The notes under the pieces: model-generated
What the model was told of the DNA's origin: nothing
Database searches by the model: none
Seen by the model: the letters and a program-made list of their open reading frames with translations, nothing else
Position numbers and translations under genes: made by a program
Shown: positions 423 through 28,850 of the stretch, in pieces
Numbering within the stretch: the stretch's first letter is position 1
Layout of the letters: every line of letters begins with the position of its first letter
Virus record (IMG/VR): IMGVR_UViG_3300035701_001471
Coordinates: 1-31,634 of that record
DNA length: 31,634 nt
Source of the DNA: a virus
Strand: one strand, 5' to 3'

Positions 423-3098
423 ATGCCTGTTGGCGAGCTTGTTCTACTTCAGCTAAATGATACGGCAGTTGCCAGTCGCAAGTCTGGTTATATTGCTGGT
501 CTTTCTACTCATGTAGGAAGTAGACTCGCCTATTTATGTGGTGGTATTGTACCTACGCCCTCTAGTAAGGCTGCATATCTAAAGGGTTCATCTACAACAC
601 TAGAGAGTAAAGCGTCATATCTCAGCGGTAGCAGTACAACAGTAGCCAATAAATTCGCTTTTCTAAAGGGTGGTATCACTTCTACTTCAAGCAAATCAGC
701 ATATCTAAAAGGTAGTTCTACAGTAGTTGCACAAACCCTTGCTTATTTGCAAGGGCAATCTAGTGGAGTTAGTTCTAAGCCCACATACCTAAATGGGAAG
801 GCAGATATAGTAATAAGCAATGCTGTATATCTGAAAGGGCAATCCACCTTACTAGACAGTAGATCAGTGTACCTCAATGGATTGTCTACTGATCTTGTTT
901 CCAAACCCGCTTATCTACGTGGCAGTATTCAAGTTGCTAACTCCTCTTCTGCTTTTATACAAGGGAAGTCATCTGATCTTTCCAGTAATCCCACATATTT
1001 ATTAGGAGGTGCGGGTTATGGGCAATCAAATCATACCTCATACATTCACGGATGGCTATCAACAATCTCTTCTATACTTGGATACATCAAAGGGTGGTTA
1101 TCTACTGCTGACTCTAAACCAGCATACATTAGGGGATCAACAGTCGCCAGTTCTAATAAGTCTGGTTATCTTGCGGGTATTCCATCAGGAACAGAAATAT
1201 CATCCCAGGTTCCAGTCTATCTTGTAGCTACAGGAAATGCAGATCCAGCAGTTACTTTTATTACCTTTATTGTTCCTGGTGAATTAGGTACTTTATCAAC
1301 AACAAATACTCATGCTTACCTAGTTGGAGAGAGTTCTACTATTTCTAGTAACACTGCTTTCCTACAGGGAAGGGAAATCTCATCCGGTTATTTACCCTCT
1401 TACCTAAAAGGACAAGACTATGGACAATCTACTATCCACGCCCTTGCAAGTGGGTTGGATACTAACTTATCGAACCTACACGCTTTTACTAAAGGTAACT
1501 CGGAAACAACTCATAGCATTGGATCATACCTTCGAGGTCAGAGTATTGTCATTGACAATCAGCAAGGATACCTCCGGGGCTCTTCTTCCATTCAGAACTC
1601 AACGCCTGCTAGCACTCACGGTCAAGCATTAGCCAATACATCTACTAATGGTTTCTTGGTTGGTGGGATAACTCAAACTTCAACAAGGTCTGCCTTCCTA
1701 AAAGGACATAATACTACAGCTAGTCAAATTCCTGTTTATGTTCAAGGTTATTTGACTAATGTAAGCTCAGTAATAGCCTTCCTAACTGGTAGGGCTAATG
1801 TAGTAAGCAATAAAACTGCGTTTATTATTGGGCAGATACTCTCAAATATTAGTGTTTATATTAGAGGTAGTACAGATGTCAATATACTTCAAAGCGCCTA
1901 TACCAAAGGGCTTGATTATGCAATATCGTACATATACGCTTATAGTAGAGGTAGTCAAGAAATACAAGACTCTCTATGGGCATTTATTTCAGGTAGACAG
2001 TCTGCACTTCACAGTTTGCAAGGATATATCAAGGGGCAAGAAGAAGTTCAAGATACAACGTCTGTCTACTTACGAGGGCGAGATAGTACAGTAACTAGTA
2101 AAACAGCTTTTATTAGTGGTAAGTCTGGCCAGACTATAACTCAACAACCTGTATATTTACATGGTCAAACTAGTGGTATCTCAAGTCATATAGCCTTTAT
2201 AGTTGGTAAAGCTTATGCACTAGCACAACAGATAGTATACATTTTAGGTCGATTATTCGATATAAATAGTAAATCTGCATTTATACAAGGGAAGGATAAT
2301 AGCCTATCAAGAGTTGGTGTATATCTTTACGGTGATGGCAAAGCTAGATTAGTAGTTACAGCTTACATAAAGGGCTATCTCCCAAATGCTAGTAGTGCTC
2401 GGGCATATCTTGTAGGCAAATCGTTAGGTAATTCCTTACAATCTGCATACTTAAGTGGTGGTATTAGATCTTCTTCTAGTGCCCATCTTAAAGGTAGTAT
2501 CAATCCTATTGCTTCACACCAAGCATACACTAAAGGTAAAGCTTATGCTAATGCTCAAACATCATCCTTCCTTCGAGGCTCTAATGTATCATCTTCTTCC
2601 CATCCCGGATACCTGAGAGGGTCAAACCACCTGGTCAGTGTGGTCCACGGATACATGGCTGGAAGGAACATATCAAGTAGTTCCTTGGCCTCCTATCTAC
2701 AAGCCTCCTCCAAGGCAATCAGTAGTAAGGGAGCTTTCCTACAAGGAACAGAAGTACGCTCTTCACAAACAGCATACATTAGAGGTGCGATCACTGCAGA
2801 AAGCTCTAAGTCAGTCTACATGCGCTGCGAGGACGTTGCACAAAGCTCGCAATCAGCTTATACACAAGGCTTAGGAGAAGAAGCACGTTCATCTTCTAGT
2901 GTATATCTTAGGGGTGAATATGACAACCTTATCTATTTCAATGGCTCATTCTTGTTATACTATACTATCAATGGTGAGCATCGTTTCCAAAGCAATTTCA
3001 ATGGCACATTCCTCGAAGAATACCACCTTTCTGGCCTCCACAATGTGGAGGTTTATGTTGCAGGAGAGTGGAAAATAGTATATAATAAGGATGGTTGA
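423..3098 (+). CDS. Giant tandem-repeat fibre or surface protein with about 55 copies of a 14-residue repeat
   Basis: A perfect AGGAGG lies 5 nt upstream of ATG 423. Of the 891 residues, about 24 to 830 are degenerate tandem copies of a 14-residue unit with consensus [AVSG]-[YF]-[LI]-x-G followed by a Ser/Thr-rich nine residues (for example AYLKGSSTTLESKA). The aromatic, the aliphatic and the Gly are nearly invariant; the rest drifts. The last ~60 residues differ and hold a duplicated FNGSFL / FNGTFL motif. Such regular short repeats suggest a fibrous or beta-solenoid rod; the terminal piece may be a trimerisation or capping domain. There is no signal peptide, no membrane segment, and no catalytic motif. 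Its place just before the capsid genes suggests a virion appendage. The C-terminal coding region contains copy 1 of the recurring CTCCAC palindrome. The family is not recognised; a fibre role is inference. Confidence 0.7.
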   Translation: MPVGELVLLQLNDTAVASRKSGYIAGLSTHVGSRLAYLCGGIVPTPSSKAAYLKGSSTTLESKASYLSGSSTTVANKFAFLKGGITSTSSKSAYLKGSSTVVAQTLAYLQGQSSGVSSKPTYLNGKADIVISNAVYLKGQSTLLDSRSVYLNGLSTDLVSKPAYLRGSIQVANSSSAFIQGKSSDLSSNPTYLLGGAGYGQSNHTSYIHGWLSTISSILGYIKGWLSTADSKPAYIRGSTVASSNKSGYLAGIPSGTEISSQVPVYLVATGNADPAVTFITFIVPGELGTLSTTNTHAYLVGESSTISSNTAFLQGREISSGYLPSYLKGQDYGQSTIHALASGLDTNLSNLHAFTKGNSETTHSIGSYLRGQSIVIDNQQGYLRGSSSIQNSTPASTHGQALANTSTNGFLVGGITQTSTRSAFLKGHNTTASQIPVYVQGYLTNVSSVIAFLTGRANVVSNKTAFIIGQILSNISVYIRGSTDVNILQSAYTKGLDYAISYIYAYSRGSQEIQDSLWAFISGRQSALHSLQGYIKGQEEVQDTTSVYLRGRDSTVTSKTAFISGKSGQTITQQPVYLHGQTSGISSHIAFIVGKAYALAQQIVYILGRLFDINSKSAFIQGKDNSLSRVGVYLYGDGKARLVVTAYIKGYLPNASSARAYLVGKSLGNSLQSAYLSGGIRSSSSAHLKGSINPIASHQAYTKGKAYANAQTSSFLRGSNVSSSSHPGYLRGSNHLVSVVHGYMAGRNISSSSLASYLQASSKAISSKGAFLQGTEVRSSQTAYIRGAITAESSKSVYMRCEDVAQSSQSAYTQGLGEEARSSSSVYLRGEYDNLIYFNGSFLLYYTINGEHRFQSNFNGTFLEEYHLSGLHNVEVYVAGEWKIVYNKDG
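480..2925 (+). repeat. Degenerate 42-bp coding tandem repeat (14-residue unit, about 55 copies)
   Basis: The unit is conserved at protein level ([AVS][YF][LI]xG plus nine polar residues) but strongly diverged at DNA level, so it is not a recent expansion. Spacing between successive aromatic-L/I-x-G cores is mostly 14 residues, with occasional one-residue indels and one disturbed patch around 1200-1300. Long open frames in the other frames (about 1009-1227, 1420-1632, 1828-2094) are by-products of this periodic composition. Confidence 0.85.
3035..3051. repeat. CTCCAC palindrome, copy 1 (CCTCCACAATGTGGAGG)
   Basis: Eight-base arms flank one central base. It lies inside the coding end of the repeat fibre gene, read as G-L-H-N-V-E-V. 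It is one of five sites in the window sharing CTCCAC-ARN-GTGGAG. The sites inside genes are read in different frames, so the conservation is not explained by protein sequence. Confidence 0.7.
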
Positions 3099-3240: not shown

Positions 3241-3687
3241 ATGTCTCTGACAGCAGGGCAACCTAAGATCCGCTATGCAGGACATTTCAATCCAGGTGAT
3301 ATTTCGGGTCTATCCTATGTTCCGAAAGTGATTACAGTAGAGAAAGCTCTAAGTGGCTCGGCAGCTGAGACCTTCATGGCTATGCCTGCTCAAGCCTTTC
3401 TGAGCAAAATCACTGCTGTAATTACTGAAGTGTCGGCATCGACAGACGCGACAATCGTCATCGGACTTGACGGTGATACTAGTGAGTTTGTTACTGGAAC
3501 AGATTTTACTGCTGATACCGTAGGCAATTTTGCGATATTCAACACGGGTTACTTCTTCACTCAGGCAGATAACATGGCCTTTGAAGTAACTGGTCACACT
3601 GTAACCAATGGCGAACTCAAAATTATCGTTGAGTATTATGAACTAGCCGAAATGTTCCAAGTCGGTGGGGTTCACGTTTCACTATAA
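3241..3687 (+). CDS. Small beta-rich virion protein next to scaffold and capsid (possible decoration protein)
   Basis: The start ATG has ACAGGAGGTC 5-9 nt upstream. The 148-residue product is soluble, acidic and Thr/Val/Ala rich with predicted beta alternation throughout (for example KITAVITEVSASTDATIVIGL). There are no Cys residues, coiled coils or membrane helices. Gene order (this gene, scaffold, major capsid) is where many phages encode a head decoration or head fibre protein, and the size fits. That assignment is from position and composition only; I do not recognise the family. Leader structure upstream (3100-3200) may control its expression. Confidence 0.6.
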   Translation: MSLTAGQPKIRYAGHFNPGDISGLSYVPKVITVEKALSGSAAETFMAMPAQAFLSKITAVITEVSASTDATIVIGLDGDTSEFVTGTDFTADTVGNFAIFNTGYFFTQADNMAFEVTGHTVTNGELKIIVEYYELAEMFQVGGVHVSL

Positions 3688-4382: not shown

Positions 4383-5765
4383 ATGGCAACAGGTGATTTC
4401 GATCTTTATTACACCGATAATCCTTGGGAAGCCATCGACAAGAATCAGCGCACCTGGTACGACCCCGATCTAATTGCGCTATTCCGTCAAAAAGCACTGT
4501 TTACCCCTACCATCCAGTTCACCAAGAACCTGGGTGACGTACGAGCTACCAAGATGGTGCTCTCACAGTTGCTTGATCCCCATCCCGATTACACAGCTTT
4601 AGCTGTGCGCCAAATCTGGATGCCAGCTTCCCATATCGACTCCCGCCAATGCGAGATTACGTTCTCTCGTTATGGTGGAAAGGTCGCCTATACCGTCTAT
4701 GACGATATGGTGACTTACTGGAAGCAGAACGGTTCAGAAGGTATCAGACGTATCATGAAGGGTGCTCTCGGGCAACACATGATTGACGTTATGGACCTCT
4801 TGGCTCGTAATGCTTATATCAAAGGTGCTCTTGACTCAGGCTATGTCCTGTATCAAGGTTCCTCTAATGTATCTTTTGGAGATCTGGCATCGACTGATCT
4901 ATTTGATATTAAAGTTGCTATGGAAATCTGGCTTGGTATGTCATTACGTGGTGTTGCAAGCGCCATGGGTGAGTCTGGTGCAGCCAATAGCATTGTCTGC
5001 TATACCAGTCCTTCAGTTATCTATGACATTCAATCTGCCACAGGTGGCGAGTGGATTTCCGTCAATCAGTATCAAGGTCTACCTTCTCTAATCAAGTACG
5101 AAGTTGGATCCTATAAGAACGTACGCTTTGTCCAATCACCTAAGCTGGTGCTTTGGAACTGTGGCGAACTTATTGCTCAGGCTCCAATTGCTGTAGCTGT
5201 TCATGCTGGTGATGGTGCTCCTGATCCTTCAACAACTAAAGTTGATGGTGTCTGGCAGGTTGGTCAGGAAAGTAATGGTATCGTGAACTACATCACTCCT
5301 GGCGCCTTTGGTACTGGCTCAATCGCCAATATCGCAGTTAACGATATTGTCAGTATCCATCTTGGTCGTACGAGCGCATACGATGTTACGAATGGAGTTA
5401 ATCCCTTCGAAGGCACTATGTGCAACCGCCGTATCGTACAGAAGCTAACAACCCCCGATCGTTTGGTCTTAGACCAACCCATCATGATTGATATGGCAAC
5501 TGCCGTATCACCTGGTGTGTTCGGTTATATCTCCAAAGGCACCAATGTACATGCGTCTATCTTTGTTGGTGGACCTAATGGCATTGTGTCCGGTGTTGCA
5601 GCTCCTCCTCGCTTCCATGCGCCACCCCCGGTTGATGACTTCGAGATGGTTCAACGGTTCTCATGGGATGCTTACATGGGATACCAAGACTATGCTCCTG
5701 AAGTATTCGAAGTCGTATTCTCGGCTGGTACAACCCGCGTGAAGGGCAATAAGGTAAATCAGTAA
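4383..5765 (+). CDS. Major capsid protein, HK97-fold, N4-gp56-like
   Basis: At 460 residues this is the right size and place for the shell protein, right after the scaffold and before neck genes. The pattern resembles the N4-gp56 capsid family as I know it: an early FTPTIQFTKNLGD region, a basic RRIMKGALGQH helix, a long spine-like helix DVMDLLARNAYIKGA near residue 140, and a KYEVGSYKNVRFVQSPK strand near 240 that matches the family's G-x-x-x-x-VRFVE-type segment. Residues about 275-395 form a Gly/Val/Thr-rich stretch that looks like an inserted beta domain, ending before the C-terminal strands (AYMGYQDYAPEVFEVVFSAG). GAGGTGA precedes ATG. No N-terminal cleavage site is evident. The stop overlaps the next start (TAATG). 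Confidence 0.85.
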   Translation: MATGDFDLYYTDNPWEAIDKNQRTWYDPDLIALFRQKALFTPTIQFTKNLGDVRATKMVLSQLLDPHPDYTALAVRQIWMPASHIDSRQCEITFSRYGGKVAYTVYDDMVTYWKQNGSEGIRRIMKGALGQHMIDVMDLLARNAYIKGALDSGYVLYQGSSNVSFGDLASTDLFDIKVAMEIWLGMSLRGVASAMGESGAANSIVCYTSPSVIYDIQSATGGEWISVNQYQGLPSLIKYEVGSYKNVRFVQSPKLVLWNCGELIAQAPIAVAVHAGDGAPDPSTTKVDGVWQVGQESNGIVNYITPGAFGTGSIANIAVNDIVSIHLGRTSAYDVTNGVNPFEGTMCNRRIVQKLTTPDRLVLDQPIMIDMATAVSPGVFGYISKGTNVHASIFVGGPNGIVSGVAAPPRFHAPPPVDDFEMVQRFSWDAYMGYQDYAPEVFEVVFSAGTTRVKGNKVNQ

Positions 5766-6993: not shown

Positions 6994-8097
6994 ATGGCTA
7001 TTACTGCTCAAGCTGGTGTTTTCGCTTTTGGGCCTCAGGAAGCTAAGGGTACAATTGCAACCGATTTCTTCAAGCATCGTGCATCTGATGTTGATCTAGC
7101 AACTGTTTCAGATGACCGTTTGGGTCCACCCGAAGTGGGTGGTATTCCAACACCTACCATTCCCTACCGCGCTGGCGTGATGGCAACTGGTGGTGCTCTA
7201 ATTAATCCCCGCTTGGAAAGTACTCTCGGGTGGCTACTCTATGGTGCTTTGGGTGCTGTGAATACTTCCAGCAACAAAGACGTATTAGGTGCGACTGTTA
7301 CTGGTATGTACGCTCACCAGTTCCTTTTCGCAACCGATGCAGGTTATGTACCATGGATGAGTTTCCGTAAATATACCCCAGGTGGTGGAGATGACGCAAA
7401 CTCTTTAGGTGAAACCTTTAGAGATTGTAAAATCGTTGCTTTGACCCTTGCATTGCCCAATGACGGGCTTATCAATGCTCGTGTCGATGTTCTCGGTCTT
7501 GGTGGTACAGACGAGACTACTTTCACGCAATTCGAAAGTGATCCTGACTGGAATACTACCTACGAAAATACCGAGTACGAAGATTACGAGTCCATCCCAA
7601 TCGGCTCCGTGGCTGGTGGGTATTTACAGGTACCAGGCTTAGGCTCTGGTGATCTTCCTGTTGTTCAAGCAACCGTAACCCTGCAGAACGCTCCACTCGA
7701 TATTCGGCAGGAAAAGGTATTCGGTAGTCCTTTCCTTGAGGATGTTACTATCATTGGTCGACAGATGACTGTTGATATGGTTCTCAAGTGGCGTGACCCT
7801 GAACTATACCGCGCTATCTTAACCGGAACGACTACAGGCACGAAATGGGTGCCAACGCCCTTTGTTGATGATCTTGACATTGTGGCACAATCCAGTGTTC
7901 TTTGTGGAACGACCACAAAACCCTATGGTATCCGTATCAAGGCAGCTAACGTTATGTACCAAGTTCAGGGTGGTATTCGTTTAGCTGGTGGACAGGCTGT
8001 GATGCTCCGTGTAACTGGCACTGCTATTGCGGGTACTGGTACGTATGCGGAGATTTGGATTGGTAACAACACTACAGCATATACCTGGCCTACCTAA
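6994..8097 (+). CDS. Major tail (tube) protein
   Basis: ATG 6994 follows an ideal AGGAGG. The 367-residue protein is beta-rich with Gly/Thr-rich loops and has no membrane segments. It starts with a typical tube-protein pattern, TAQAGVFAFGPQEAKGT, meaning a small N-terminal strand followed by a loop about dose of difference from a reference state. It then runs through a duplicated pair of beta blocks (about 50-190 and 200-367), both containing strands followed by DVLGLGG or VMYQVQGGIRLAGGQ. Position between the terminator and the chaperone/tape measure genes is diagnostic for siphovirus tail tube proteins. The length exceeds lambda gpV (246 residues), suggesting an extra domain. Confidence is high for the role, moderate for domain limits. 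Confidence 0.8.
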   Translation: MAITAQAGVFAFGPQEAKGTIATDFFKHRASDVDLATVSDDRLGPPEVGGIPTPTIPYRAGVMATGGALINPRLESTLGWLLYGALGAVNTSSNKDVLGATVTGMYAHQFLFATDAGYVPWMSFRKYTPGGGDDANSLGETFRDCKIVALTLALPNDGLINARVDVLGLGGTDETTFTQFESDPDWNTTYENTEYEDYESIPIGSVAGGYLQVPGLGSGDLPVVQATVTLQNAPLDIRQEKVFGSPFLEDVTIIGRQMTVDMVLKWRDPELYRAILTGTTTGTKWVPTPFVDDLDIVAQSSVLCGTTTKPYGIRIKAANVMYQVQGGIRLAGGQAVMLRVTGTAIAGTGTYAEIWIGNNTTAYTWPT

Positions 8098-9035: not shown

Positions 9036-12000
9036 ATGGTAGATGAAACCAATTTTGCTAACATGCCTTTGGGTGACTTAGAGGCATTATTCAAAGTTGC
9101 ACAAGCTTCTATGCAGAGCATAGGGTTTACTTCTAGCAACGATCCGGCGTTATTCAAAAGATACCAAGATATATCCACTGAGCTACAAAGACGCAATCAA
9201 TTAACTGCTGACCAGAATGTAGTTGCAACCAAAGGCGCAACAATACCTATCCAGGGATGGAAATCACCTAATAAACCTGGCGAAATTCCACAGACAACCT
9301 CTCCTGCTGTAACTGGTTCTGCTATAAAGTCGAAGCTTGAATTAACTGGAAAGCCAACCAATCCAGCTCTAGTGGGTAGGGGTCCAACTACGGGGCATGG
9401 AATACCCCCAGATAGTAATCAGCCCCCGAATAATCCAACTGGAGGAAATTGGGTATATCCAACCGCTCCAAGACGTGGCCGTAATCCTTATGCACCCCCA
9501 AGTATGGAGGCATTTCAAGCTAGTCTTGAAACATCTCTAAGAACTACACTTGGTGGCCCCAATAGATATGCCATAGACTATACTCAAACTGAAGCTGGTG
9601 CTCTACGTCTGTCTATTTCTCAGGTTGGTAGAAAAGGAGCTAAAGGTCCAGCCTTAGTAACAGATCTAACTCCTGGTTACAATACTCCCTTTGGCGCCTC
9701 AGTCAATCTTTTTAATCCATCAGGATGGCATGGTGTTATTAGCCCTGAAATTATAGTTAATCAACTTGGGGTACCTGGGGGTACACAAATACGTTCTCCT
9801 ATGGAAGCTTTCTCTCAATATGTTAGAGCAACCTTTAGTCCTGAAATGGCTAAATATGAGAGAAATCCTAGTAATAGATTTACTGCATTACTTGCAAAGG
9901 GAAATCGTATCGGATCGCCCGGGACTCCCTTCGGTGAAGCAATGCAACAATATCCTATAGCTGGCGGTATGGAGTGGATAGGTCCCGAAGAAACTGAATA
10001 TGGACAGGCTGCTTTTGCTAATCGTATTGCTGTTAGTATCAACCCTGCTCTAAAAGATCAGGGAGCAGTTTTGCAGAACATCTACAATCAAATTGTTGGT
10101 GGACGAGCTGCAACCAAAATGGGTATAGCTACTTCTGAGCAAATGCAATGGGCTAAAGGATATGGTTACGCTCCTATTCTTGATGAACAAAGCCGTATGC
10201 GTTTAGCTCTATTTGGGTATGAAGGTCCAGATGAAACTATTGTTGCTCCTGGTAAAGATGCTGGAAACATAATCAAACGTTTACGTATTAGACCAGTTGC
10301 TCGACCAGAAGCAGATATGATACGACTAAATGATGAAGGCCGACCAATAAAGGCTGCACCACTTCCATTAGGTGTAAATTATGAAACTGGCAAAATAGAT
10401 ACCGAAAGTATGAAAGCTCCCTACAGAGCTGGTTATCGTATCCTTGGCGCTCCTCCTGGTACCAATCAGCCTCTAGTTGGTTATGTTCAACCAGCAACTT
10501 TGTTTAGAGAAGGACCTTATTCTGGTGGCAATTTTACTTATGTAGATTTTCTCAAGAAACAAGGAATAATAGCTGCCGGGGCTGCTACAAGAATAGAACC
10601 TGATATTCCCAATCTATCTATGAGTCAATTAGCTAATGCTGAGTGGGAGTTTGGACAATACAAAGAGACTCCAGGCGAGGCTGGCGCACCGTCTACATTT
10701 GAAAGAACTAGTAACGAGCTACCTGCAGGAATGGAAGCACATTCTTCAGCTATATTAGGTTTATTGAAATACACTAATGCGGAGAACATTCCACAAACTG
10801 TACCTTTGAGATATTCTACCGAGCGTCCTATCTTCTTTACAGGGAAACCACAACTTTCTGTTGCTAGTTTTTGGAGTCCAAGCACAGGTGTAGGATTATC
10901 TGGTATGCATGAGGGAGGTAAACAACCAACTGATATTCAACAAAATGTACTTGCTGGTCAAATTGCACAAAAATTTATGCAGGGTGGTGGTGGAGTTGTA
11001 AATACTGGTACATCAGGTGAGACTCAATTTCAAATTCCTATTACGACTGAAACCGCTGTATCTGCTAAAGGTATAGTAAAAGGGCCTCTGCTTCCAATAA
11101 CCACTCAGAAGAAAGGTGATTATGATCAGCGTATCCGTATTATGCTTGACCAACAAACTGAGGTAGAACGACAGATATACGGTATAACTAACTCGCTAAA
11201 ACTTCCTGATGATCGGATGATGGGTCACTTCCTAGCTGCTACACCAACTGTAAGAGAGAAACTTGTATCTACTTTTGGGGAAACAAACCCACAACTAGCA
11301 GAAGGATTGCGCCGATACTTACGCTTCAACCAGACACAAGGAACAGCTTTTAATTATCATGGTCAAGCACTTGCAGCTACAGGGTTACCACAATCTGAAA
11401 TGATGGGGCAGATATATGCTAAGTGGACAAATCAACCATATCAATGGGAAGTATCTGCTAATCAAATGTATGGTGCTATGCGTCAAAATGTTGAGGCATT
11501 ACCACCGAGAGAACAACTACAAAGGTTCGAGTATTTAGGTAAGGTTCCAGAACGGCCCGATGCTCCCAATATGGTCAATCAGGGTCTAATGGGTTGGGGT
11601 GATCGTTATAGCTGGCAGCGTTCTATTATGCAAAGTCTTATCCAGCAACAGCAAGAAACTAATCAGATTGATATTACCACATCAACTGGTCGAAGAGCTT
11701 TTCGACAAATCTATGGCAAGAGTCCTACGCAAATATCGGAACGATTTATGCAATGGGAACCAACTAATCTGCGTGGTCAAGTTAGCTCACAATTCCCCAA
11801 GGGTGAGCCTATCTACAACTGGAAAACAGGGGGGCCAGCTGCATTTGGTACAATGGTAGCCCCTTTAGTAGCTGAACACATGGGAAGAAATGTACGACTG
11901 AATTATGAAACAATTGCTGCTCTAAATGCTGTATATCCTCAAACCGCCGATATGCTTGGTCTCGGAGTAAAACAAAAATATATTGGTGGTGAGTCTCCTA

Positions 12001-15000
12001 CAGGATACACACCCAAGGATATTCGAGCCTGGCGTGAGGTTGGAGAAGTTTCATCCTTATTGTCATCTGAGACTAACATAAATACACCACCCTTCAAATA
12101 TACAGAGCTTGACGAAAACGTAAGAGGACAAATACTTGGATGGGGTGGTACAGATTTAGGAGAACTAGATAAACTTATTGGTGGCGAAGGCCCTCTTTAC
12201 GACCCGAAATCTAAGGTTTGGTTAGAAAGACCAAGCACAATTCAGTCTATTAGTACTGTGGGTTTTCAAGGAGATATGGATGTAAAGACAGCTCTTTCAA
12301 GATGGGCTAGTTATTATCCTACAGCTATAAAGGGTATGGCGCAGGGTATGACACCAAATCTAGATCAAGGAGCAACTGAAGGAGAATATGCTCTTGGTCA
12401 AATCTACCAACATAGGGCTACTACATTTAGCTCAAAGCGTGGTGGTGTTATGCGTGATATTGCTTCAAGATATTTGGCTCAAGCTGAATATATGCGCTAT
12501 GGTGCTATCACTGGCCTTCCCTATGGTGGTGTAGCTGTTAATCGTCAGACCATAGATAGCACTCTTAGGCAATTAGCTCGCTATTCTCCTGCTATGAAAG
12601 AAGCTGGTCTTGGACCAAATTCTAAAATAGAAGATCCAAATGACCCCAATAAACGTATTAGATGGATTGATCTTGCAAAACGCCAGCTATCAGAAAATAA
12701 TTGGTTTCCTGGAATGGTAGCACGTTCACCAACAGATATACGTGAGGGTGGAGCACTAATGGCGCCTGTATTTACTCAGGAAGGTTTAGCTAAAATGGGT
12801 ATCAATTACCCACAATCCACCATGATACGAGGTAACCAAATCTCACCAGGAAGTCCACTTACTACGGGTACATTCCAGATGGGTGCTGGACAAAGTGTAT
12901 TTGGAGGCGACTTCGACTTTGATCCGGCCACAATCGCAGCTGTCATGAGTGCTGGACCTCAAGGACTAAACTTCCTTCAGGGTGGTGAAGCTGGCTTTAC
13001 TGAGTTAACCAAATACTTTGCCATGACACCAAAACAACGTGTAAGAGAGTATGAAGCTCTTCAAGCAACGGTAGGAGGTAGGGGTATTATTCCCGGCAAC
13101 GAGTTCAATCAAACTGCCAAAGAAGCTACAGACTCTATGAAGAATATACTCCTAGAAAGAGTGCTTGGTAGAAATCCTAATGCGCCAATTCCTGGTGGCT
13201 CTACTGGTATTGAGGCTGGTGCACCAGGTACGAGATCACGATACCAGGCTGCTGTTCCATATTCTGATTTATGGAATGAGGCCTCAACAGTACTTAAATC
13301 TGGTGTAAAGGGTTCATGGCAAGCATACTTACCAGCTGAATTATTCGAGTCTACTGCTGCTGGTTTAGGATGGAGTGATAAGGAAACTAATAAAGCTAAG
13401 TCTGAGCTTGGGTACTTCTATCGTGGCTACCTAGAGTCTAGTACAGGCAAATGGAAACAACGTGGTGGTCCAAATGCCATTGAAAGTATGCTACAAACTT
13501 CTATCTTCGGTGTTACTCCTTCTGGTGAATATAGATTGACAGGTAAAGAACGAGCATCAGCAGGTTGGTCAAACTTTTGGTATGGTGGCAAATCTTCTAA
13601 GGGTTGGGGGGAAGCTGGTCAAAGTTTACTTCGTAATTCAATAGGCAGACGTATGACTGGTGCCATAGCAGAAGATATTGCTAGTATGTCTACTCCATCT
13701 TATCACTTAGCCTCCTATCTAACAGCTAGTCGAGAAGAAGATGTTCCAGCTCTTCAGACGAAAATGGAGACCCTTGCTCAGCAACCAGGAATGAATCCTC
13801 AACGTGCTATTCAAACAGCACTATGGGGGCCTGGTAATGATATTGTAGGACCAGAAGCTTACTATAAGAATAACGACCCAACAATGTCGATCGGTGTAAC
13901 TTCCCTTACTCTATCAATGCTTGGTAAGAGTATGGGCTGGCTAGGTCATGGTGCGCGTACTTGGACTAATCCAGAAACAGGTGTAACTTCCTTGAGTATG
14001 CAACAAATACAGAATGAACCTATATGGTTTCATGGAAAGGTGCAATCTGTACAAGGATTGTGGCAATCACCACCCATGCAAACATCACAGATACTCTATT
14101 CCATGCTTAGAAATCAACCATCCAGACTCGGTGAAAACTATCAGAGAATAAGTGCTAACTTTTCTCCTGAGCAAATTGCTGGTGTAGAAAACTTTAGAAC
14201 TGGATTAGAAGGTCAGGGCAAAGAACCTTCTGGTTTATTGAACTACTTTTCTTCTCAATTTAGTGGCACACCATGGGCAGCAAATGAAGATATAGTAAAA
14301 GGTCAGCTTGAAGCCGATCGGTTACTCAATATAATACAAGGTAAACGCGTAAGTACCAGAGAGCAACAAGAAAATCTTGATGCTTATATAGCTGGTCATC
14401 CAACTCTTCATACAGAAGATATAGCTATGCCTGCAAATCAAGCTAGTCGAGAGATATTGGCTAATACTGAAATTCCGCTTAAGAATCTAACCAGTATACG
14501 TAGACAGAGAAGACGTGAAGAAACGATACTCAAGAAACAAGCTTCAGCAGCACCTATTGTCGAACCTGAACCTTATAAGCCATCACCTACAATATTGCAA
14601 ATGGAACAAGAAACAAAAGGTATTAGAGAGGCATGGAGTGTTGCTCCGGAAAACTCACAACAACGTGCAGACCTACTAGAAGAATATAAAATAAAGAGTC
14701 GGGCTACGGTTGAAGCACGTAGGGTTGAATACACAGCCTCAGCTCAGGGTAAATCTGATATTGAAATTGCTAATCGAGTTCAGGCTATTAGAACAGCTCG
14801 TATAGATGCTGGTCAAACTATTCCCGAGGATCTTAGTAGTATATCAATGCAAATGACAGGAGCGAAAATAGATGCTAGACCATTAACAACCGAGCAAAAG
14901 ACTAAGGCTCGTGAAACAATTGCCAAGTATGGTAATGTACAAGGACAGCCACCAGTAAGTGGCGTTGGAGCAACTATAGCCACGGCCCCACCACAAACTC

Positions 15001-18000
15001 CTACACCTCCAGTTGATCAGTTACCTACCGCTCCACTTCAAGAACCTCCACAGGGTGGAGCTGATGTATTCCCAATGATGAGGCAAAACAAAAAAGGGGA
15101 ATGGGTACAAACAGGTAAGGGTATCTCAAACCTCTCAACTGCTGGTAATTTGCTTTCAGCTCGTGGTGGTAGTGGATTAGGTGGTAGAGACTTTGAGAAT
15201 ATGAGCGTAGAAGAGCTAGCTGCTATGAGACCCGGTAGCCAGGCTACTGTCAATGTGATTCATCAGTGGGCTAATACTTCTCCGCCTGATATGTTTTCTC
15301 AAAGACAAGTAATCCAGAAGGGAATGACCGCTTTAGCAGGTTGGGTAACCAATCCAGCTGCCATGGACTTAGACAAGAATCTTAGGCAAGAGTTAAGTGC
15401 ACTTACTGGAGCTACTGCGGAGCAAGCATCAGCTAAAGATATTCCTCAATTATGGGAAGAAGGATTCAATGCTAATCGGGGTAAGGCTACTGATATTTGG
15501 CGTAAGTATCAAGGATTGATACAGACTGGTTCTAAGGTAAGTTCATCTGTAATGGCTGCTCTCAATGCTAATATAAAAGTACGAACCAATGATCCTAATA
15601 TCAATCAAGTTATTGCTGCAACAGGTCTAAATCCTGCAGATCCATTTGTAGAACAGAAGTTTGGTGCTGTTAGAAGTGGTAATGCTCCTGCTGAAGGAAT
15701 GGAGTTATATAATCAAGCAGCTGGACCACTTAACACAGCTACTATATTGAATAAAATAGGGCAAGTGTATGGTCTTAGTAAAGAGAAAATGAGTGCCGTT
15801 TCTGCTGAGGATATGGAGAAATTCAATAAAGGTCTCAGAGAAGCCTCAAGGTTGATGGAAGTGTATCAAAAGGTACAAAATGACGCAACCAAATCTGTAG
15901 AAGCGCATACCTATGCCTACGAGAAAGAGAAGGAAGTTCTACTTAAACAGAAAATACTTCCTACAGCTACAATGGCACTTGCAGAAGCAAGAGCTGATGT
16001 TAGAGCTGCCGAAGCTGAAGGTTCTGGTAAAACACCCTCAGAGATATATGCTGCACAGAGAAAACTAACTGCTGCTGAGAAGGCATATGGTACTGCGAGA
16101 AAGGCAGTACAGAGATTAGAAGCAGGAGAGGTTACAGCAGAAGGAGCGGTATCTGAAGCGGAGGGTGAAGGGGGAAGAGGTATAACTACCGAGGGTGTTG
16201 GCAAAATGTCCAGACGCTTACTTGGTGGTTTTGGTCTGATGTATTTGAAGTCTATTGCTGGCATTATCATGCAACCTACACAGATGGGTTATGCTGAGCA
16301 ACTTCAAGAACAACAAGCAGTCCAGCAAGGATATGGTAAGCGCTTTGGTGGTGTAGTACCATTTGCAAATCCAGAACAGCAATACCAACGCGCAGCTGCT
16401 ACATATGGCGGTATAGGCTGGTCACAAATCAGGCAGACACAAGCTCAAATCATGCGTGAGCAACCAAGTGTTCAGGGTGCTATTGGTATGGGTGAAGCTG
16501 GCATTGGTGCTGGTGGTCTTGTAGCTACTTTAGGATGGATGGCTGGCACACCAGTGTCATGGCCTGCCCTAGCTGCTGTAGCTGCCACTGCCGGAGTAGT
16601 TTCGGCTGGTATCAATATCTATGGTGCTAAGAATCAACCAGAAAAGAACGCAATTACTTTAGCATCTCAAGAAGCTTCAGGAGCTAATCCAACACCTGGA
16701 TACTGGGATTTCAAACAAATATTTAATTGGTCTAACTATGGATTTATGCAAGATAAAGAACGTCAAACTCCTATGGTTGATATGCTTAGAAAGATGCGTC
16801 AGTATCAAGAAGGTGGTGGTGCTGATCTACGAGGTTTCTTAGCACAGGAAGGGGTTGAAGGGAATATTGATACCAATAAATATATGGCTATGTATCAACA
16901 AGTACAAGCTTCACAGTATCCTAATATACCAATGGAGGGATTAGTTGGAGCACAGGGATTACAAGATCAATATAAGATGATGCTTACTGAGGGTGACTAT
17001 GGTTCTCGTGCGATACTTGCAACTGGCATAGCCCAGGGTATACCCTATGAACAAACTGCAATGCTTGCAGCTTACTCGCCTAGTAGAACCTTTGAGCAAC
17101 AACAACAAGCTGTTGGTCAAACTATACAGAACTGGCTTACACAAGCTCAGGGTCTAACTCAATCTGAGATAACTAAAACCGAAATTGGGGCAAAACGTTT
17201 CCAGCAGTTGGGATTATTTGCACCTAGGTTCCCCGAGCCTACACCAGAAAGAACATATACAGTTCCTAGTTATGGAAAGTCTCGAGAAGATGTAATTCGT
17301 GAACAAGCAACTCGACAGCAACCGCTATCCAATGCAGCATATAACCAAGCTGAAGCTTTGAGATTAGGAGCTGGTCCACAAACCTTTGGTCAAGTAATGA
17401 GCAATGAATATCCCAATAAGTATATGCCTGGATATGGTACTGCTACTGCACCAGCCCCAACAGCAATAGAGATAGCACAATTCAAGGCAAATGCTCAAGA
17501 GTGGCAAGCTGCTCAACCATCATGGCAAGGGGTTCCATTCATAAATAAAACAGAAGTAAGAATTCCAGCTCGTGATTTACAGAAAGAGTATCAAGATATA
17601 TTAGCAAATCTTCCTGAATATCAAAATACACTCATACAGGCTGATTGGGCTAGATATACCTCTCGTAAAGTAATGGGGCTTCCCGAAGTCTCTCCTGCTG
17701 CAACTACAGAAGAACTTACACAGAAATATGGTGGTACTCTAACAGAAGAAGAGATAGCAACTCGGATGCGTGAGGATCAGAGACAAGCTTTACGCACCCA
17801 GGCACAAGAACAGGTATGGGGTGGATGGCAGGCACTTGGCGTTACAAATCCAAATATGATGCCGACTGAAACTGCAACTTACGGACAACTACAACAGCAG
17901 ACGGCACAATTGCAGTTTGGTAATGCCTTCTCACAAACTATGATGAGTGGTGGCATGGAAGCCACACTAGCACAAGGTTTTGGTGGCGCTTTTGGTCTTA

Positions 18001-19949
18001 TGGCACCACAACAGTTTGAGCAATATAAAGCACTAGCCAATCTATCACCTCAACAATGGGGAGCTTATCTGCTAAAGAATCCACAAATAGCAGCTCAGTT
18101 ACCTGGTATGGTTGGTGGTATTGGTGGTCAGGTTAGTACTCAATCTATTGGTATGGTTGATGTAAATGCCCAAGGTGGTCTTACTGGAATGGGTTGGGGC
18201 ACATCAACTTTGGCTACACCGCAGATGGTCGGTCAGATACAAGCTGGTGGTATCATGACTCCAATGGGGATACAATCAATTAGTCCTCAAATGGCTACTA
18301 CAATGGCAAGTCAGCAAATGGCAAATAAGATATGGGGTCAAGGTTATCAAGGTCGTACTGATATATCTCAGGGTGCGGCAGCTGCTATGGTATCTGGTGG
18401 TACATTTGGTTTAGCACAATATCAACAAACTCTAAATGTAGATTATCAGAAACAAATGGCTGGCAATCAACTTGCTATGCTCAATCTTCAGGGCGAGTAC
18501 ATGCCTAAATTCTGGAATATTGAAGATCGCCAACGTTCCTTACAGAATCAACAGGCACAATGGGGATTTCAGATGCAGGAACGACAGATGGGCATGCAAC
18601 GTGGACAGTTCTATGAAAATATAGGACTAAACCAACAGCAAGCTCAAATGCAACGTGGCTGGACACAGCAAGATTGGCAGTATCAGAATCAGACACGTAA
18701 TCTACAATGGGGTTGGAAGCAAGAAGATTTCGGAGAACAACTTCGCTTTATGACAGGACGTGACCGCCGATTAGCCGAGCGTCAAATGGGTCGTGAGACT
18801 ACTTTACATGACTTAGAGAGTGAGCAGATCACCAAGACACGTGACCGCCAAAAGGAATTGTGGGCGCTTGAGGATCAACGCTTTGCCTTACAGAAGAAAC
18901 AGTTTGAGGAACAAATGGCTCTTCAGCAAGAGAACCTAAATAAACAGAAGGAGTTCTATACACAAGGTAGAGCACTTCAGGAAGAACAGGTCAAATTACA
19001 GCGAGAGTACTGGAAAGCTCAGCATGAACTTCAATTAGCTGCTGGTGGTGCAGCTGCAAAGTATGCTACAGAACAAGGAAAGGTAAACCAGCTCATGCTT
19101 GAGTTTTCTCAATTCTCGACCTTGGCTTCAGCTAAAGGTAATCTATTCAATTCCGAAACTATTAAGGCTCTTATCACAGCGATCGCAGAACTTGATCCAG
19201 TCTTTGCTCATCTACTTGAGCAAGCACTTAATTTACAACAGTATACAGGTGGTGGTGGTTGTTTCGTTGCTGGCACAAGTGTATCTACATGGGCTGGTGT
19301 TAAGGATATCGCGGATATAAAAGAAGGCGATATTGTAATGTCTTATGACGAAGAAAGTGGATGTAATGTACCTAATCGTGTGACTAGAATATTCCAGCAT
19401 CCTCAAATGTCTGTTGTAGAAGTGAAGACCGAGCATGGTGTAGTCAAATGTACACCTAAACATACATTCTGGACTGGTGATAAGGGCTGGAAGTCTGCCT
19501 GTAATCTTGAAGAAGGTGAAACAATCAAGCTAATTGATGGACACTATACCCAGGTTATTTGTGTCACTGATGTAATTGGAAGCTATTGGGTATATAACCT
19601 ATCTATTGAGCATGACCATACATATTATGTAGAAGAGATGCTAGTACATAATACGGCTGCTAAGAACGCAATTGGTGGCCCTACTATCCCAGGACAATAT
19701 CACATAGTAGGAGAAAATGGTCCTGAGTTGATTAACACACCCTATTCTGTAAGTGTTATGCCTAATAACGAGCTAAAGGCTCGAATGTATAACTCAGAAT
19801 ATAATTCAAGTTGGGCTAGTACAACCATTAATAATCAGCAAGCCAAAGAACCATTTGTCCAAAGACTTACAATACCAATTTATATTGGTAATGAATACAT
19901 AGAAGATATGATTGTCGAGATTGTAGATGGAGAAGTGAGGAAGATCTAA
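9036..19949 (+). CDS. Giant tape measure protein containing a mini-intein and a large N-terminal inserted region
   Basis: GAGG lies before ATG. The 3,637-residue protein follows the chaperones, the fixed place of the tape measure. Order: short helical start (1-60); Pro-rich linker (70-150); Gln/Gly/Pro-rich block 150-1980 with a candidate DxDxD site at 1292-1296; Pro linker near 1985-2010; helices 2010-2380; hydrophobic stretches near 2395-2412 and 2485-2530 that could enter the host membrane; Gln/Arg-rich coiled coil 3156-3350 with repeated Q-W-x-x-Q/E-D motifs; mini-intein 3409-3539; then GGPTIPGQYHIVGENGPEL, the C-terminal motif common to tape measure proteins. At about 0.15 nm per residue, the full spliced chain would set a tail of about 525 nm. 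If the 150-1980 block is globular, the length-setting part is nearer 240 nm. The stop overlaps the next start (TAATG). Confidence 0.9.
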   Translation: MVDETNFANMPLGDLEALFKVAQASMQSIGFTSSNDPALFKRYQDISTELQRRNQLTADQNVVATKGATIPIQGWKSPNKPGEIPQTTSPAVTGSAIKSKLELTGKPTNPALVGRGPTTGHGIPPDSNQPPNNPTGGNWVYPTAPRRGRNPYAPPSMEAFQASLETSLRTTLGGPNRYAIDYTQTEAGALRLSISQVGRKGAKGPALVTDLTPGYNTPFGASVNLFNPSGWHGVISPEIIVNQLGVPGGTQIRSPMEAFSQYVRATFSPEMAKYERNPSNRFTALLAKGNRIGSPGTPFGEAMQQYPIAGGMEWIGPEETEYGQAAFANRIAVSINPALKDQGAVLQNIYNQIVGGRAATKMGIATSEQMQWAKGYGYAPILDEQSRMRLALFGYEGPDETIVAPGKDAGNIIKRLRIRPVARPEADMIRLNDEGRPIKAAPLPLGVNYETGKIDTESMKAPYRAGYRILGAPPGTNQPLVGYVQPATLFREGPYSGGNFTYVDFLKKQGIIAAGAATRIEPDIPNLSMSQLANAEWEFGQYKETPGEAGAPSTFERTSNELPAGMEAHSSAILGLLKYTNAENIPQTVPLRYSTERPIFFTGKPQLSVASFWSPSTGVGLSGMHEGGKQPTDIQQNVLAGQIAQKFMQGGGGVVNTGTSGETQFQIPITTETAVSAKGIVKGPLLPITTQKKGDYDQRIRIMLDQQTEVERQIYGITNSLKLPDDRMMGHFLAATPTVREKLVSTFGETNPQLAEGLRRYLRFNQTQGTAFNYHGQALAATGLPQSEMMGQIYAKWTNQPYQWEVSANQMYGAMRQNVEALPPREQLQRFEYLGKVPERPDAPNMVNQGLMGWGDRYSWQRSIMQSLIQQQQETNQIDITTSTGRRAFRQIYGKSPTQISERFMQWEPTNLRGQVSSQFPKGEPIYNWKTGGPAAFGTMVAPLVAEHMGRNVRLNYETIAALNAVYPQTADMLGLGVKQKYIGGESPTGYTPKDIRAWREVGEVSSLLSSETNINTPPFKYTELDENVRGQILGWGGTDLGELDKLIGGEGPLYDPKSKVWLERPSTIQSISTVGFQGDMDVKTALSRWASYYPTAIKGMAQGMTPNLDQGATEGEYALGQIYQHRATTFSSKRGGVMRDIASRYLAQAEYMRYGAITGLPYGGVAVNRQTIDSTLRQLARYSPAMKEAGLGPNSKIEDPNDPNKRIRWIDLAKRQLSENNWFPGMVARSPTDIREGGALMAPVFTQEGLAKMGINYPQSTMIRGNQISPGSPLTTGTFQMGAGQSVFGGDFDFDPATIAAVMSAGPQGLNFLQGGEAGFTELTKYFAMTPKQRVREYEALQATVGGRGIIPGNEFNQTAKEATDSMKNILLERVLGRNPNAPIPGGSTGIEAGAPGTRSRYQAAVPYSDLWNEASTVLKSGVKGSWQAYLPAELFESTAAGLGWSDKETNKAKSELGYFYRGYLESSTGKWKQRGGPNAIESMLQTSIFGVTPSGEYRLTGKERASAGWSNFWYGGKSSKGWGEAGQSLLRNSIGRRMTGAIAEDIASMSTPSYHLASYLTASREEDVPALQTKMETLAQQPGMNPQRAIQTALWGPGNDIVGPEAYYKNNDPTMSIGVTSLTLSMLGKSMGWLGHGARTWTNPETGVTSLSMQQIQNEPIWFHGKVQSVQGLWQSPPMQTSQILYSMLRNQPSRLGENYQRISANFSPEQIAGVENFRTGLEGQGKEPSGLLNYFSSQFSGTPWAANEDIVKGQLEADRLLNIIQGKRVSTREQQENLDAYIAGHPTLHTEDIAMPANQASREILANTEIPLKNLTSIRRQRRREETILKKQASAAPIVEPEPYKPSPTILQMEQETKGIREAWSVAPENSQQRADLLEEYKIKSRATVEARRVEYTASAQGKSDIEIANRVQAIRTARIDAGQTIPEDLSSISMQMTGAKIDARPLTTEQKTKARETIAKYGNVQGQPPVSGVGATIATAPPQTPTPPVDQLPTAPLQEPPQGGADVFPMMRQNKKGEWVQTGKGISNLSTAGNLLSARGGSGLGGRDFENMSVEELAAMRPGSQATVNVIHQWANTSPPDMFSQRQVIQKGMTALAGWVTNPAAMDLDKNLRQELSALTGATAEQASAKDIPQLWEEGFNANRGKATDIWRKYQGLIQTGSKVSSSVMAALNANIKVRTNDPNINQVIAATGLNPADPFVEQKFGAVRSGNAPAEGMELYNQAAGPLNTATILNKIGQVYGLSKEKMSAVSAEDMEKFNKGLREASRLMEVYQKVQNDATKSVEAHTYAYEKEKEVLLKQKILPTATMALAEARADVRAAEAEGSGKTPSEIYAAQRKLTAAEKAYGTARKAVQRLEAGEVTAEGAVSEAEGEGGRGITTEGVGKMSRRLLGGFGLMYLKSIAGIIMQPTQMGYAEQLQEQQAVQQGYGKRFGGVVPFANPEQQYQRAAATYGGIGWSQIRQTQAQIMREQPSVQGAIGMGEAGIGAGGLVATLGWMAGTPVSWPALAAVAATAGVVSAGINIYGAKNQPEKNAITLASQEASGANPTPGYWDFKQIFNWSNYGFMQDKERQTPMVDMLRKMRQYQEGGGADLRGFLAQEGVEGNIDTNKYMAMYQQVQASQYPNIPMEGLVGAQGLQDQYKMMLTEGDYGSRAILATGIAQGIPYEQTAMLAAYSPSRTFEQQQQAVGQTIQNWLTQAQGLTQSEITKTEIGAKRFQQLGLFAPRFPEPTPERTYTVPSYGKSREDVIREQATRQQPLSNAAYNQAEALRLGAGPQTFGQVMSNEYPNKYMPGYGTATAPAPTAIEIAQFKANAQEWQAAQPSWQGVPFINKTEVRIPARDLQKEYQDILANLPEYQNTLIQADWARYTSRKVMGLPEVSPAATTEELTQKYGGTLTEEEIATRMREDQRQALRTQAQEQVWGGWQALGVTNPNMMPTETATYGQLQQQTAQLQFGNAFSQTMMSGGMEATLAQGFGGAFGLMAPQQFEQYKALANLSPQQWGAYLLKNPQIAAQLPGMVGGIGGQVSTQSIGMVDVNAQGGLTGMGWGTSTLATPQMVGQIQAGGIMTPMGIQSISPQMATTMASQQMANKIWGQGYQGRTDISQGAAAAMVSGGTFGLAQYQQTLNVDYQKQMAGNQLAMLNLQGEYMPKFWNIEDRQRSLQNQQAQWGFQMQERQMGMQRGQFYENIGLNQQQAQMQRGWTQQDWQYQNQTRNLQWGWKQEDFGEQLRFMTGRDRRLAERQMGRETTLHDLESEQITKTRDRQKELWALEDQRFALQKKQFEEQMALQQENLNKQKEFYTQGRALQEEQVKLQREYWKAQHELQLAAGGAAAKYATEQGKVNQLMLEFSQFSTLASAKGNLFNSETIKALITAIAELDPVFAHLLEQALNLQQYTGGGGCFVAGTSVSTWAGVKDIADIKEGDIVMSYDEESGCNVPNRVTRIFQHPQMSVVEVKTEHGVVKCTPKHTFWTGDKGWKSACNLEEGETIKLIDGHYTQVICVTDVIGSYWVYNLSIEHDHTYYVEEMLVHNTAAKNAIGGPTIPGQYHIVGENGPELINTPYSVSVMPNNELKARMYNSEYNSSWASTTINNQQAKEPFVQRLTIPIYIGNEYIEDMIVEIVDGEVRKI
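12720..12960 (+). other. Candidate RNA-polymerase-like catalytic segment (DxDxD) inside the tape measure gene
   Basis: Residues 1230-1247 (RSPTDIREGGALMAPVF) align by eye with the RAPT-x-x-R-x-G-x5-P-V segment of bacterial RNA polymerase beta-prime. Sixty-two residues on, GGDFDFD (1290-1296) resembles the NADFDGD metal-binding loop, and more so the DFDID variants I recall in phage single-chain polymerases. The spacing is about 26 residues longer than in bacteria. The lysine-bearing first barrel is not securely found (weak candidates K678/K682 and K1134). Hypothesis only. Confidence 0.35.
15045..15060. repeat. CTCCAC palindrome, copy 3 (in tape measure gene)
   Basis: CCTCCACAGGGTGGAG lies in the Pro-rich linker coding region and is read P-P-Q-G-G, a different frame from the copies in other genes. 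The core CTCCAC-AGG-GTGGAG spans 15046-15060. Confidence 0.55.
19260..19652 (+). other. Mini-intein / HINT domain in the tape measure protein
   Basis: Residues 3409-3539 form a 131-residue HINT domain without homing endonuclease. Block A is CFVAGTSVST, with the nucleophile Cys at position 1. Block B is KCTPKHTFWT, with the T-x-x-H signature. Block F is HDHTYYVEEML, and block G is VHN followed by Thr at +1. All splicing residues (Cys1, block B Thr/His, penultimate His, terminal Asn, +1 Thr) are present, so splicing looks possible. The N-extein ends in GGGG and the C-extein begins TAAKN, both flexible; joining them gives a normal tape measure C-terminus. The compact size also fits bacterial intein-like domains, some of which mainly cleave. 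Confidence 0.9.
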
Positions 19950-28176: not shown

Positions 28177-28392
28177 ATGGCAACAAAGAAAGCACCAAAA
28201 GGTAAGTCGAAGATCTTTATCAAGCCATCTAAGCGAGGTACATTTACTAAGGCTGCCAAGAAATCTGGAAAGAGCGTTCCCGGCAAGGCAACCGAGGTAC
28301 TGAATGATCCTAATGCCTCACCCGAGATGAAGAAGAAAGCAAACTTTGCACGTAATTCCGCAAAGTGGAAGAAGGGCAAGCGCAAGAAATGA
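28177..28392 (+). CDS. Small basic conserved phage protein
   Basis: I place the start at ATG 28177 (AGGAG 8 nt upstream) rather than the GTG at 28168. The 71 residues are very lysine-rich. The core FTKAAKKSGKSVPGKATEVLNDPNASPEMKKKANFARNSAKW matches, from memory, a small phage family with the pattern FTxAAxxxGxSVxxxAxxVLxNxxxxSPxMxKKANFAxNAxKW whose function is unknown. The basic C-terminus KWKKGKRKK suggests binding to nucleic acid or to acidic partners. Its stop overlaps the HNH nuclease start (ATGA), so the two are coupled. Confidence 0.7.
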   Translation: MATKKAPKGKSKIFIKPSKRGTFTKAAKKSGKSVPGKATEVLNDPNASPEMKKKANFARNSAKWKKGKRKK

Positions 28393-28850
28393 CAACCAAT
28401 AATCCTGATTATATGCGCCAATGGCGTAAGAACAATCCAGATAAAGTAAAACGCAATCGGCAACGGTACAAAAACACAGACCGTTATCGCCAGCATGCTC
28501 GTGAATATTACGCAGACAATCGAGAAGCCAAAAGAGTTTATGCTAAGGCTTATAGACTTGCTCACAAAGCACAGATAAAAGCTAGCAAGATAAAGCATCT
28601 ATATGGTGAACTCGACTACAACCTAATATTCGAGGAACAGAATGGCTGTTGTGCTATATGTGGAAGGCATCAGTCGCAACTCAGTCAATCCCTCTGCGTA
28701 GATCACGACCATAAGACAGGTGAGATCAGAGGATTGCTTTGTTCGGATTGTAACTTAGGTCTTGGCTGTTTTCAGGATAGTGCTGTCAATCTGAAGTATG
28801 CCCTTTCTTACACACAGAGGTGGAAGAAAGGAGGTAAGAAGAAGAAATAG
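28389..28850 (+). CDS. HNH nuclease of the recombination endonuclease VII type
   Basis: I choose ATG 28389, which overlaps the previous stop as ATGA; the frame stays open to an upstream ATG at 28365. The 153-residue protein has an N-terminal basic helical region (about 1-70, rich in Arg, Lys, Tyr) and a nuclease core: CAIC (88-91), VDHDHKTGEIRG (104-115) and CSDCNLGLG (118-126). This matches the endonuclease VII family, with four Cys binding structural zinc and the DHDH/N residues forming the catalytic beta-beta-alpha metal site. T4 endonuclease VII resolves branched DNA before packaging; similar free-standing enzymes in phages can also be homing-type nucleases. The Lys-rich end (RWKKGGKKKK) echoes the previous protein's tail. 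Confidence 0.85.
   Translation: MTTNNPDYMRQWRKNNPDKVKRNRQRYKNTDRYRQHAREYYADNREAKRVYAKAYRLAHKAQIKASKIKHLYGELDYNLIFEEQNGCCAICGRHQSQLSQSLCVDHDHKTGEIRGLLCSDCNLGLGCFQDSAVNLKYALSYTQRWKKGGKKKK

Follow-up and report, generated by a model that had tools for sequence, protein, structure and literature searches.

A putative two-barrel RNA polymerase within the giant tape measure protein of a family of uncultured siphophages

The closest described system is gp96 of Thermus phage P23-45 (PDB 8H2M, 8H2N), an experimentally proven virion polymerase fused to a tape measure protein (Nat Commun 2024, PMC10770324). This protein of 5,002 residues carries DFDGD at residues 779-783, has an active fragment spanning residues 327-1124, is found in virions and transcribes the pre-early genes from promoters of its own; delivery through the tail and early transcription have been shown or proposed for it (PMC10770324). 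The first-pass annotation of the locus studied here suspected a polymerase inside a tape measure and stated that such a fusion had not been seen described, which gp96 refutes. Beyond P23-45 and its relatives, we found no other tape-measure polymerase fusion in the freely accessible journal papers searched. The crAss-like phage phi14:2 likewise encodes a single-chain two-barrel phage RNA polymerase (gp66, PDB 6VR4), and in crAss-like phages the virion RNA polymerases form part of large fusion proteins (PMC10770324), but their partners are proteins of unknown function and not a tape measure as in our locus. The virion RNA polymerase of N4 is also a virion polymerase injected with the DNA (PMC7824862), although it has a T7-like palm fold and is unrelated.

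We analysed a stretch of 31,634 nucleotides of viral DNA (IMG/VR record IMGVR_UViG_3300035701_001471), called here the window, in which the tape measure and its neighbours are the following:

4383-5765, plus strand: major capsid protein (phrog_1357, E 1.2e-10), used as bait for relatives
6994-8097, plus strand: tail tube protein (Pfam Phage_tube_2, E 1.3e-6; phrog_290)
9036-19949, plus strand: giant tape measure protein of 3,637 aa, one uninterrupted ORF
19254-19652, plus strand: mini-intein / Hint domain, residues 3407-3539 of the tape measure (PT-HINT, E 2.2e-9; intein structures in PDB)

The ORF at 9036-19949 can fairly be read as a tape measure, since it is located after the tail tube gene and has a VGENGPEL segment at its C-terminal end with a weak match (E 0.058) to a PHROG of tape measures. 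The gene order (capsid, tube, small ORF, tape measure) is similar to that of P23-45, and the tube protein gp94 and the tail tube of the window both belong to phrog_290, whereas the P23-45 capsid falls in another PHROG than the window capsid. Like gp96, the window protein would combine an N-terminal two-barrel RNA polymerase with a giant tape measure, and it has a DxDxD motif with an R-x-P loop upstream. The motif reads DFDGD in gp96 but DFDFD in the window protein, and neither tblastn nor HHalign gave significant similarity between the two. Polymerases of the gp96 type are flat and have no clamp, and their connector is short: it comprises 67 disordered residues (613-679) in gp96 against about 420 in the window, where the predicted structure is of low confidence. 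Polymerase activity is proven for gp96 and predicted for the window protein.

The Hint/intein domain (residues ~3407-3540) is the sole firm match of the window tape measure to Pfam, PHROGs and PDB sequences. This mini-intein, near the C-terminus, looks complete (CFVAGT ... TPKH ... VHN/T); one relative, L056, has the intein flanks without an intein at the equivalent place, and among the fetched loci the intein start pattern occurs only in copies of the window. The intein is inserted in the tape measure and lies outside the polymerase region. Elsewhere in the window, an 891-aa protein upstream of the capsid genes (423-3098) is made of dozens of degenerate short repeats (SSxxxYLxGxS-like), and a recombination endonuclease VII-type protein is encoded at 28365-28850 (Pfam Endonuclease_7, E 6e-19). 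ARAGORN also reported a tRNA-Leu at 7603-7681, within the tail tube ORF, which is probably a false positive.

The polymerase reading started from two short motifs of the tape measure:

12723-12734, plus strand: R1230-S-P-T1233, counterpart of the RAPT of beta-prime, with R and P conserved
12903-12923, plus strand: GGDFDFD, the putative catalytic loop with D1292, D1294 and D1296, a unique DxDxD conserved in relatives

Both lie where they had been annotated (RSPT at residue 1230, DNA 12723; GGDFDFD at residue 1290, DNA 12903), with PV at residue 1244 (DNA 12765) and the D1292 codon at 12909. Across its 3,637 residues the protein has no DxDxD other than DFDFD.

Relatives of the window phage were found by a search with the major capsid protein and then by capsid alignments, one genome contig being included; the polymerase region used as a query found only a near-identical contig. 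With the capsid as bait, 22 further tape-measure ORFs were recovered, which share ~12-31% identity with the window across the part that was modelled. We counted motifs in the first 1,700 residues of each of the 23 ORFs at the tape-measure position (window plus 22 relatives), a sample that includes L065, a short ORF, on account of its motif and excludes L008, whose ORF ends before the motif. DxDxD was present in 23/23 (shuffled sequences gave a mean of 3.7 and a maximum of 8), and [GA]DxDxD in 18/23, compared with 0.9 expected by shuffling (maximum 4). A 22-sequence alignment built without anchoring on the motif shows D1294 and D1296 in 22/22 and D1292 in 21/22; the sole miss was L058, which is misaligned there and has its own GDFDGD at residue 1590. 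The Asp conservation proposed as a check on the polymerase hypothesis is therefore borne out. P1232 was kept in 21/22 and R1230 in 18/22 of the same sequences. Conservation is lower at T1233 and for PV as an exact pair. The R1230-S-P-T and D1292-x-D1294-x-D1296 motifs are not chance.

The loops of the relatives vary around the three Asp (GDWDAD, GDIDAD, GDIDKD, GDFDLDQM, GDFDGDE, GDYDKD, EKDWDVD and others). Upstream, the R-x-P loop is comparable in gp96 (FRNPVMGHGGALLQARV), in P23-45 gp64 (NRRPDLPTGQSAVELTYV) and in the window protein (ARSPTDIREGGALMAPV); R1230-S-P-T occupies a place comparable to that of FRNPV in gp96, NRRPD in gp64 and SREP in ME3_36, a protein of Acinetobacter phage ME3. 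The block was present in all recovered tape-measure ORFs of sufficient length, and its absence from relatives had been named as a point against the hypothesis. Two loci were considered as motif-less relatives and rejected. L040 is not a counter-example because its ORF, downstream of the capsid gene, encodes a repetitive structural protein, different from the one in the window, and not a tape measure; in L047 the actual tape measure is encoded farther downstream, and it carries QGDFDLD. In the relatives as in the window, the polymerase block and the tape measure form one polypeptide, with the block on the N-terminal side.

Sequence searches gave a different picture. No polymerase came up when the window protein was compared with Pfam, PHROGs and PDB sequences, the last also by phmmer and hmmsearch, and profile comparisons by themselves do not reveal one. 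The T7-type Pfam RNA_pol (PF00940) matched neither the window protein nor 11 records, and the control set was likewise without a match. A tblastn search of three family members against 50,697 phage records gave no match. HHalign against gp96, gp64 and ME3_36 was not significant; with the DPBB-A region alone (the second barrel, below), its best local columns fell at the DxDxD loop for gp96 and ME3_36 and at the R-x-P loop for gp64, again none of them significant. This failure is consistent with the fact that many RNA polymerase families have no significant similarity beyond the DxDxD region (PMC10770324).

Structure prediction allowed the region to be divided as follows:

10575-11195, plus strand: probable first double-psi barrel (DPBB-B, beta-like), residues ~514-720, from the AF2 model and VIA matches
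11067-11081, plus strand: K678 and K682, conserved candidate active-site lysines of DPBB-B, their role assigned by analogy with Pol II
11199-11201, plus strand: K722, conserved lysine of a TGExKS motif after the first barrel
11196-12461, plus strand: long, mostly helical inter-barrel connector, residues ~721-1142 (AF2 secondary structure, mostly of low confidence)
12462-13085, plus strand: predicted second double-psi barrel (DPBB-A, beta-prime-like), residues 1143-1350, from Foldseek and VIA
13308-13445, plus strand: conserved segment after DPBB-A (family consensus G..YN..R..EA ... YQ.YLD), from alignments A5 and A7

The AlphaFold2 model of residues 472-1622, built with 21 sequences, had a mean pLDDT of 62, with both barrel regions mostly at 70-92; it leans on the motif, because the segments of its alignment were cut at a fixed distance from it. 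Foldseek of this model against PDB returned RNA polymerase structures in all of the best 50 rows, at largest-subunit (beta-prime/Rpb1-type) chains, with a best E of 3.3e-3 and probabilities up to 0.99; the E-values are modest and the TM-scores low, since the matches involve individual domains within a long model. By VIA-align the best structural match was QDE-1, the RNA-interference polymerase, which has both barrels on one chain (Z 9.2, rmsd 3.9, 182 aligned residues) and covers model residues 24-890, that is both barrels in order, although it is a eukaryotic cellular enzyme and the identity is 12%. It was followed by beta-prime/Rpb1 chains (Z 7.2-7.6) at model residues 672-879, corresponding to window residues 1143-1350. 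A barrel of the beta-prime/QDE-1 type is thus predicted at the motif, in line with a check set by the first-pass annotation, and DPBB-A contains the DxDxD triad of the two-barrel (DPBB) RNA polymerase superfamily. Neither P23-45 gp96 (8H2M/8H2N) nor phi14:2 gp66 was among the fold matches listed. In the segment that follows DPBB-A, the model places helices at window residues ~1409-1443 and ~1448-1468, with low confidence, and this conserved helical stretch is a candidate bridge helix / trigger loop.

Among predicted viral structures (BFVD), the best match was a protein of Acinetobacter phage ME3 (E 1e-5), followed lower down by the beta-prime of RP31 and weakly by P23-45 gp64 (E 0.24). The top match, A0A172Q021, is probably ME3_36 (L095:33172-37983, 1,603 aa), annotated as hypothetical and encoded among the tail genes, a short distance past that for the tail chaperonin. 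ME3_36 has SREP ... MGGDHDQDQAAVLG, closely resembling the catalytic loop of the window family, and is possibly another virion polymerase, in a myophage.

The first barrel, which could not be placed from the sequence at first reading, is probably formed by residues ~514-720. A separate AF2 model of residues 498-765 had a core pLDDT of ~85-97, and its best VIA rows, apart from a C-terminal helical match, were beta/Rpb2/Rpa135 at the barrel region (Z 3.3-4.1, ~91 residues, rmsd ~4 A), which is a weak match, while Foldseek of the same model gave no significant match. The predicted fold matches RNA polymerases at the second barrel, and for the first barrel the match is weak. Two lysines of DPBB-B are assigned to the active centre (PMC4996933; PMC7824862), K979/K987 in Pol II (PMC4996933), and on this basis K678 and K682 may have the same role. 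In the window they belong to a loop between strands, SAKGIVKGP; near relatives have KGGGxK there and L029 has GAKVAGLGLK, while the L042 group has LVAxKHxxKxGMSG and then GVDxVLAPNE, ~490 residues before its DWDVD. K678 is kept in 12/14 sequences of alignment A8, two more being shifted by two columns, and the K682 column in 18/22 of the unanchored alignment; K722 is invariant in the 14 A8 sequences and kept in 16/22 of the unanchored ones. By eye, these lysine loops resemble GDKMAGRHGNKG of beta, which is a lead. A beta-like barrel together with a beta-prime-like barrel is the pattern expected of a single-chain two-barrel polymerase.

We consider it very probable that a two-barrel polymerase domain occupies residues ~470-1620 of the tape measure, and probable that this domain is a single-chain RNA polymerase delivered by the tail and transcribing the first phage genes; that it is an active virion polymerase is likely. 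The beta-like barrel (~514-720) would provide the lysines K678/K682, perhaps also K722, and the beta-prime-like barrel (1143-1350) the residues D1292, D1294 and D1296, which would hold the catalytic magnesium ions. Being one polypeptide with the tape measure, the polymerase would, by analogy with gp96, be located in the tail tube and exit through the tail during infection. Transcription of the first phage genes may then begin before the DNA enters or while it does so, without the host polymerase. The hypothesis of a polymerase inside the tape measure was thus largely right.

Other features of the relatives were also recorded. The tape measures of L042, L045, L050 and L060 have nucleic-acid-binding Rho_N domains (Rho termination factor, N-terminal) near the N-terminus, ahead of the polymerase-like region. 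The best E is 1.7e-6, the Pfam cut-off is passed by L045 alone, and the domains agree indirectly with the polymerase reading. No second, non-virion polymerase was found by motif in two 82-kb relatives, and a crude k-mer search for phage promoters in three relatives gave nothing above shuffles, both of which are weak negatives. The other DxDxD ORFs followed up in the two 82-kb relatives were DnaB-like helicases or a conserved unknown protein, TOPRIM-like by eye. This is a ~560-aa protein (L082:3806-5515, minus strand; L087:7216-8880, minus strand; 39% identical) with VEKDS...SGKGK...SDxDxDG, of TOPRIM / topoisomerase VI A type by eye and with no Pfam or PHROG match. In L059 (L059:9774-15566), residues ~1406-1457 of the tape measure weakly match an M78-type metallopeptidase, which recalls the metallopeptidase domain of P23-45 gp96. 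L058 (JAAUTG010000001.1), a 71-kb contig with the canonical loop GDFDGDE, is binned in a bacterial genome labelled Saprospiraceae MAG, a weak hint at the host.

The alternative that survives best, itself improbable, is that the region descends from a two-barrel polymerase and no longer polymerises, its role in the tape measure being structural or that of binding DNA. The extreme divergence of the sequence would fit such a descent, as would the unusual loops of some relatives (RDDDKD in L048, IDADKD in L066); however, few residues remain unchanged even at ~12% identity to the window, and the three Asp and P1232 are among them, which is hard to explain without catalysis. Somewhat less probable is a two-barrel enzyme of another activity, for example one that works on the incoming DNA as a primase or as a PolD-like DNA polymerase. 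The two-barrel fold is also that of archaeal PolD (PMC4996933) and a fold match does not by itself show which product is made, but PolD retains only two of the three Asp positions (PMC4996933), all of which the window family keeps, and the only characterised tape-measure fusion, gp96, makes RNA (PMC10770324). The best single-chain match, QDE-1, argues in the same direction. Least probable of all, and strongly disfavoured, is a coincidental or calcium-binding loop in a structural protein: DxDxD-type loops are common in such proteins and profile searches gave no polymerase, yet the motif occurs in every one of the 23 ORFs with the R-x-P conserved upstream, the fold-search lists consist of RNA polymerase largest subunits, and the other barrel matches the second-largest subunit.

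In conclusion, a polymerase fused to a tape measure was already known from P23-45 gp96, and what is new is a separate family of probable fusions of this kind. This family is widespread and without significant sequence similarity to gp96, with another capsid family, a long helical connector and Rho_N domains in some members, and the fusion architecture was found in every testable member of what is a large and diverse group of uncultured siphophages. The evidence leaves evenly balanced the broader proposal that the fusion is a widespread route of polymerase delivery among long-tailed phages, and not an oddity of Thermus phages, the window family having arisen independently or the fusion being very old. 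The family offers a test set for how a cellular-type polymerase may be threaded through a tail tube and for early transcription that does without the host enzyme. Since little more than the Asp triad and a few further residues is invariant, it also offers one for the minimal conserved core of two-barrel polymerases.
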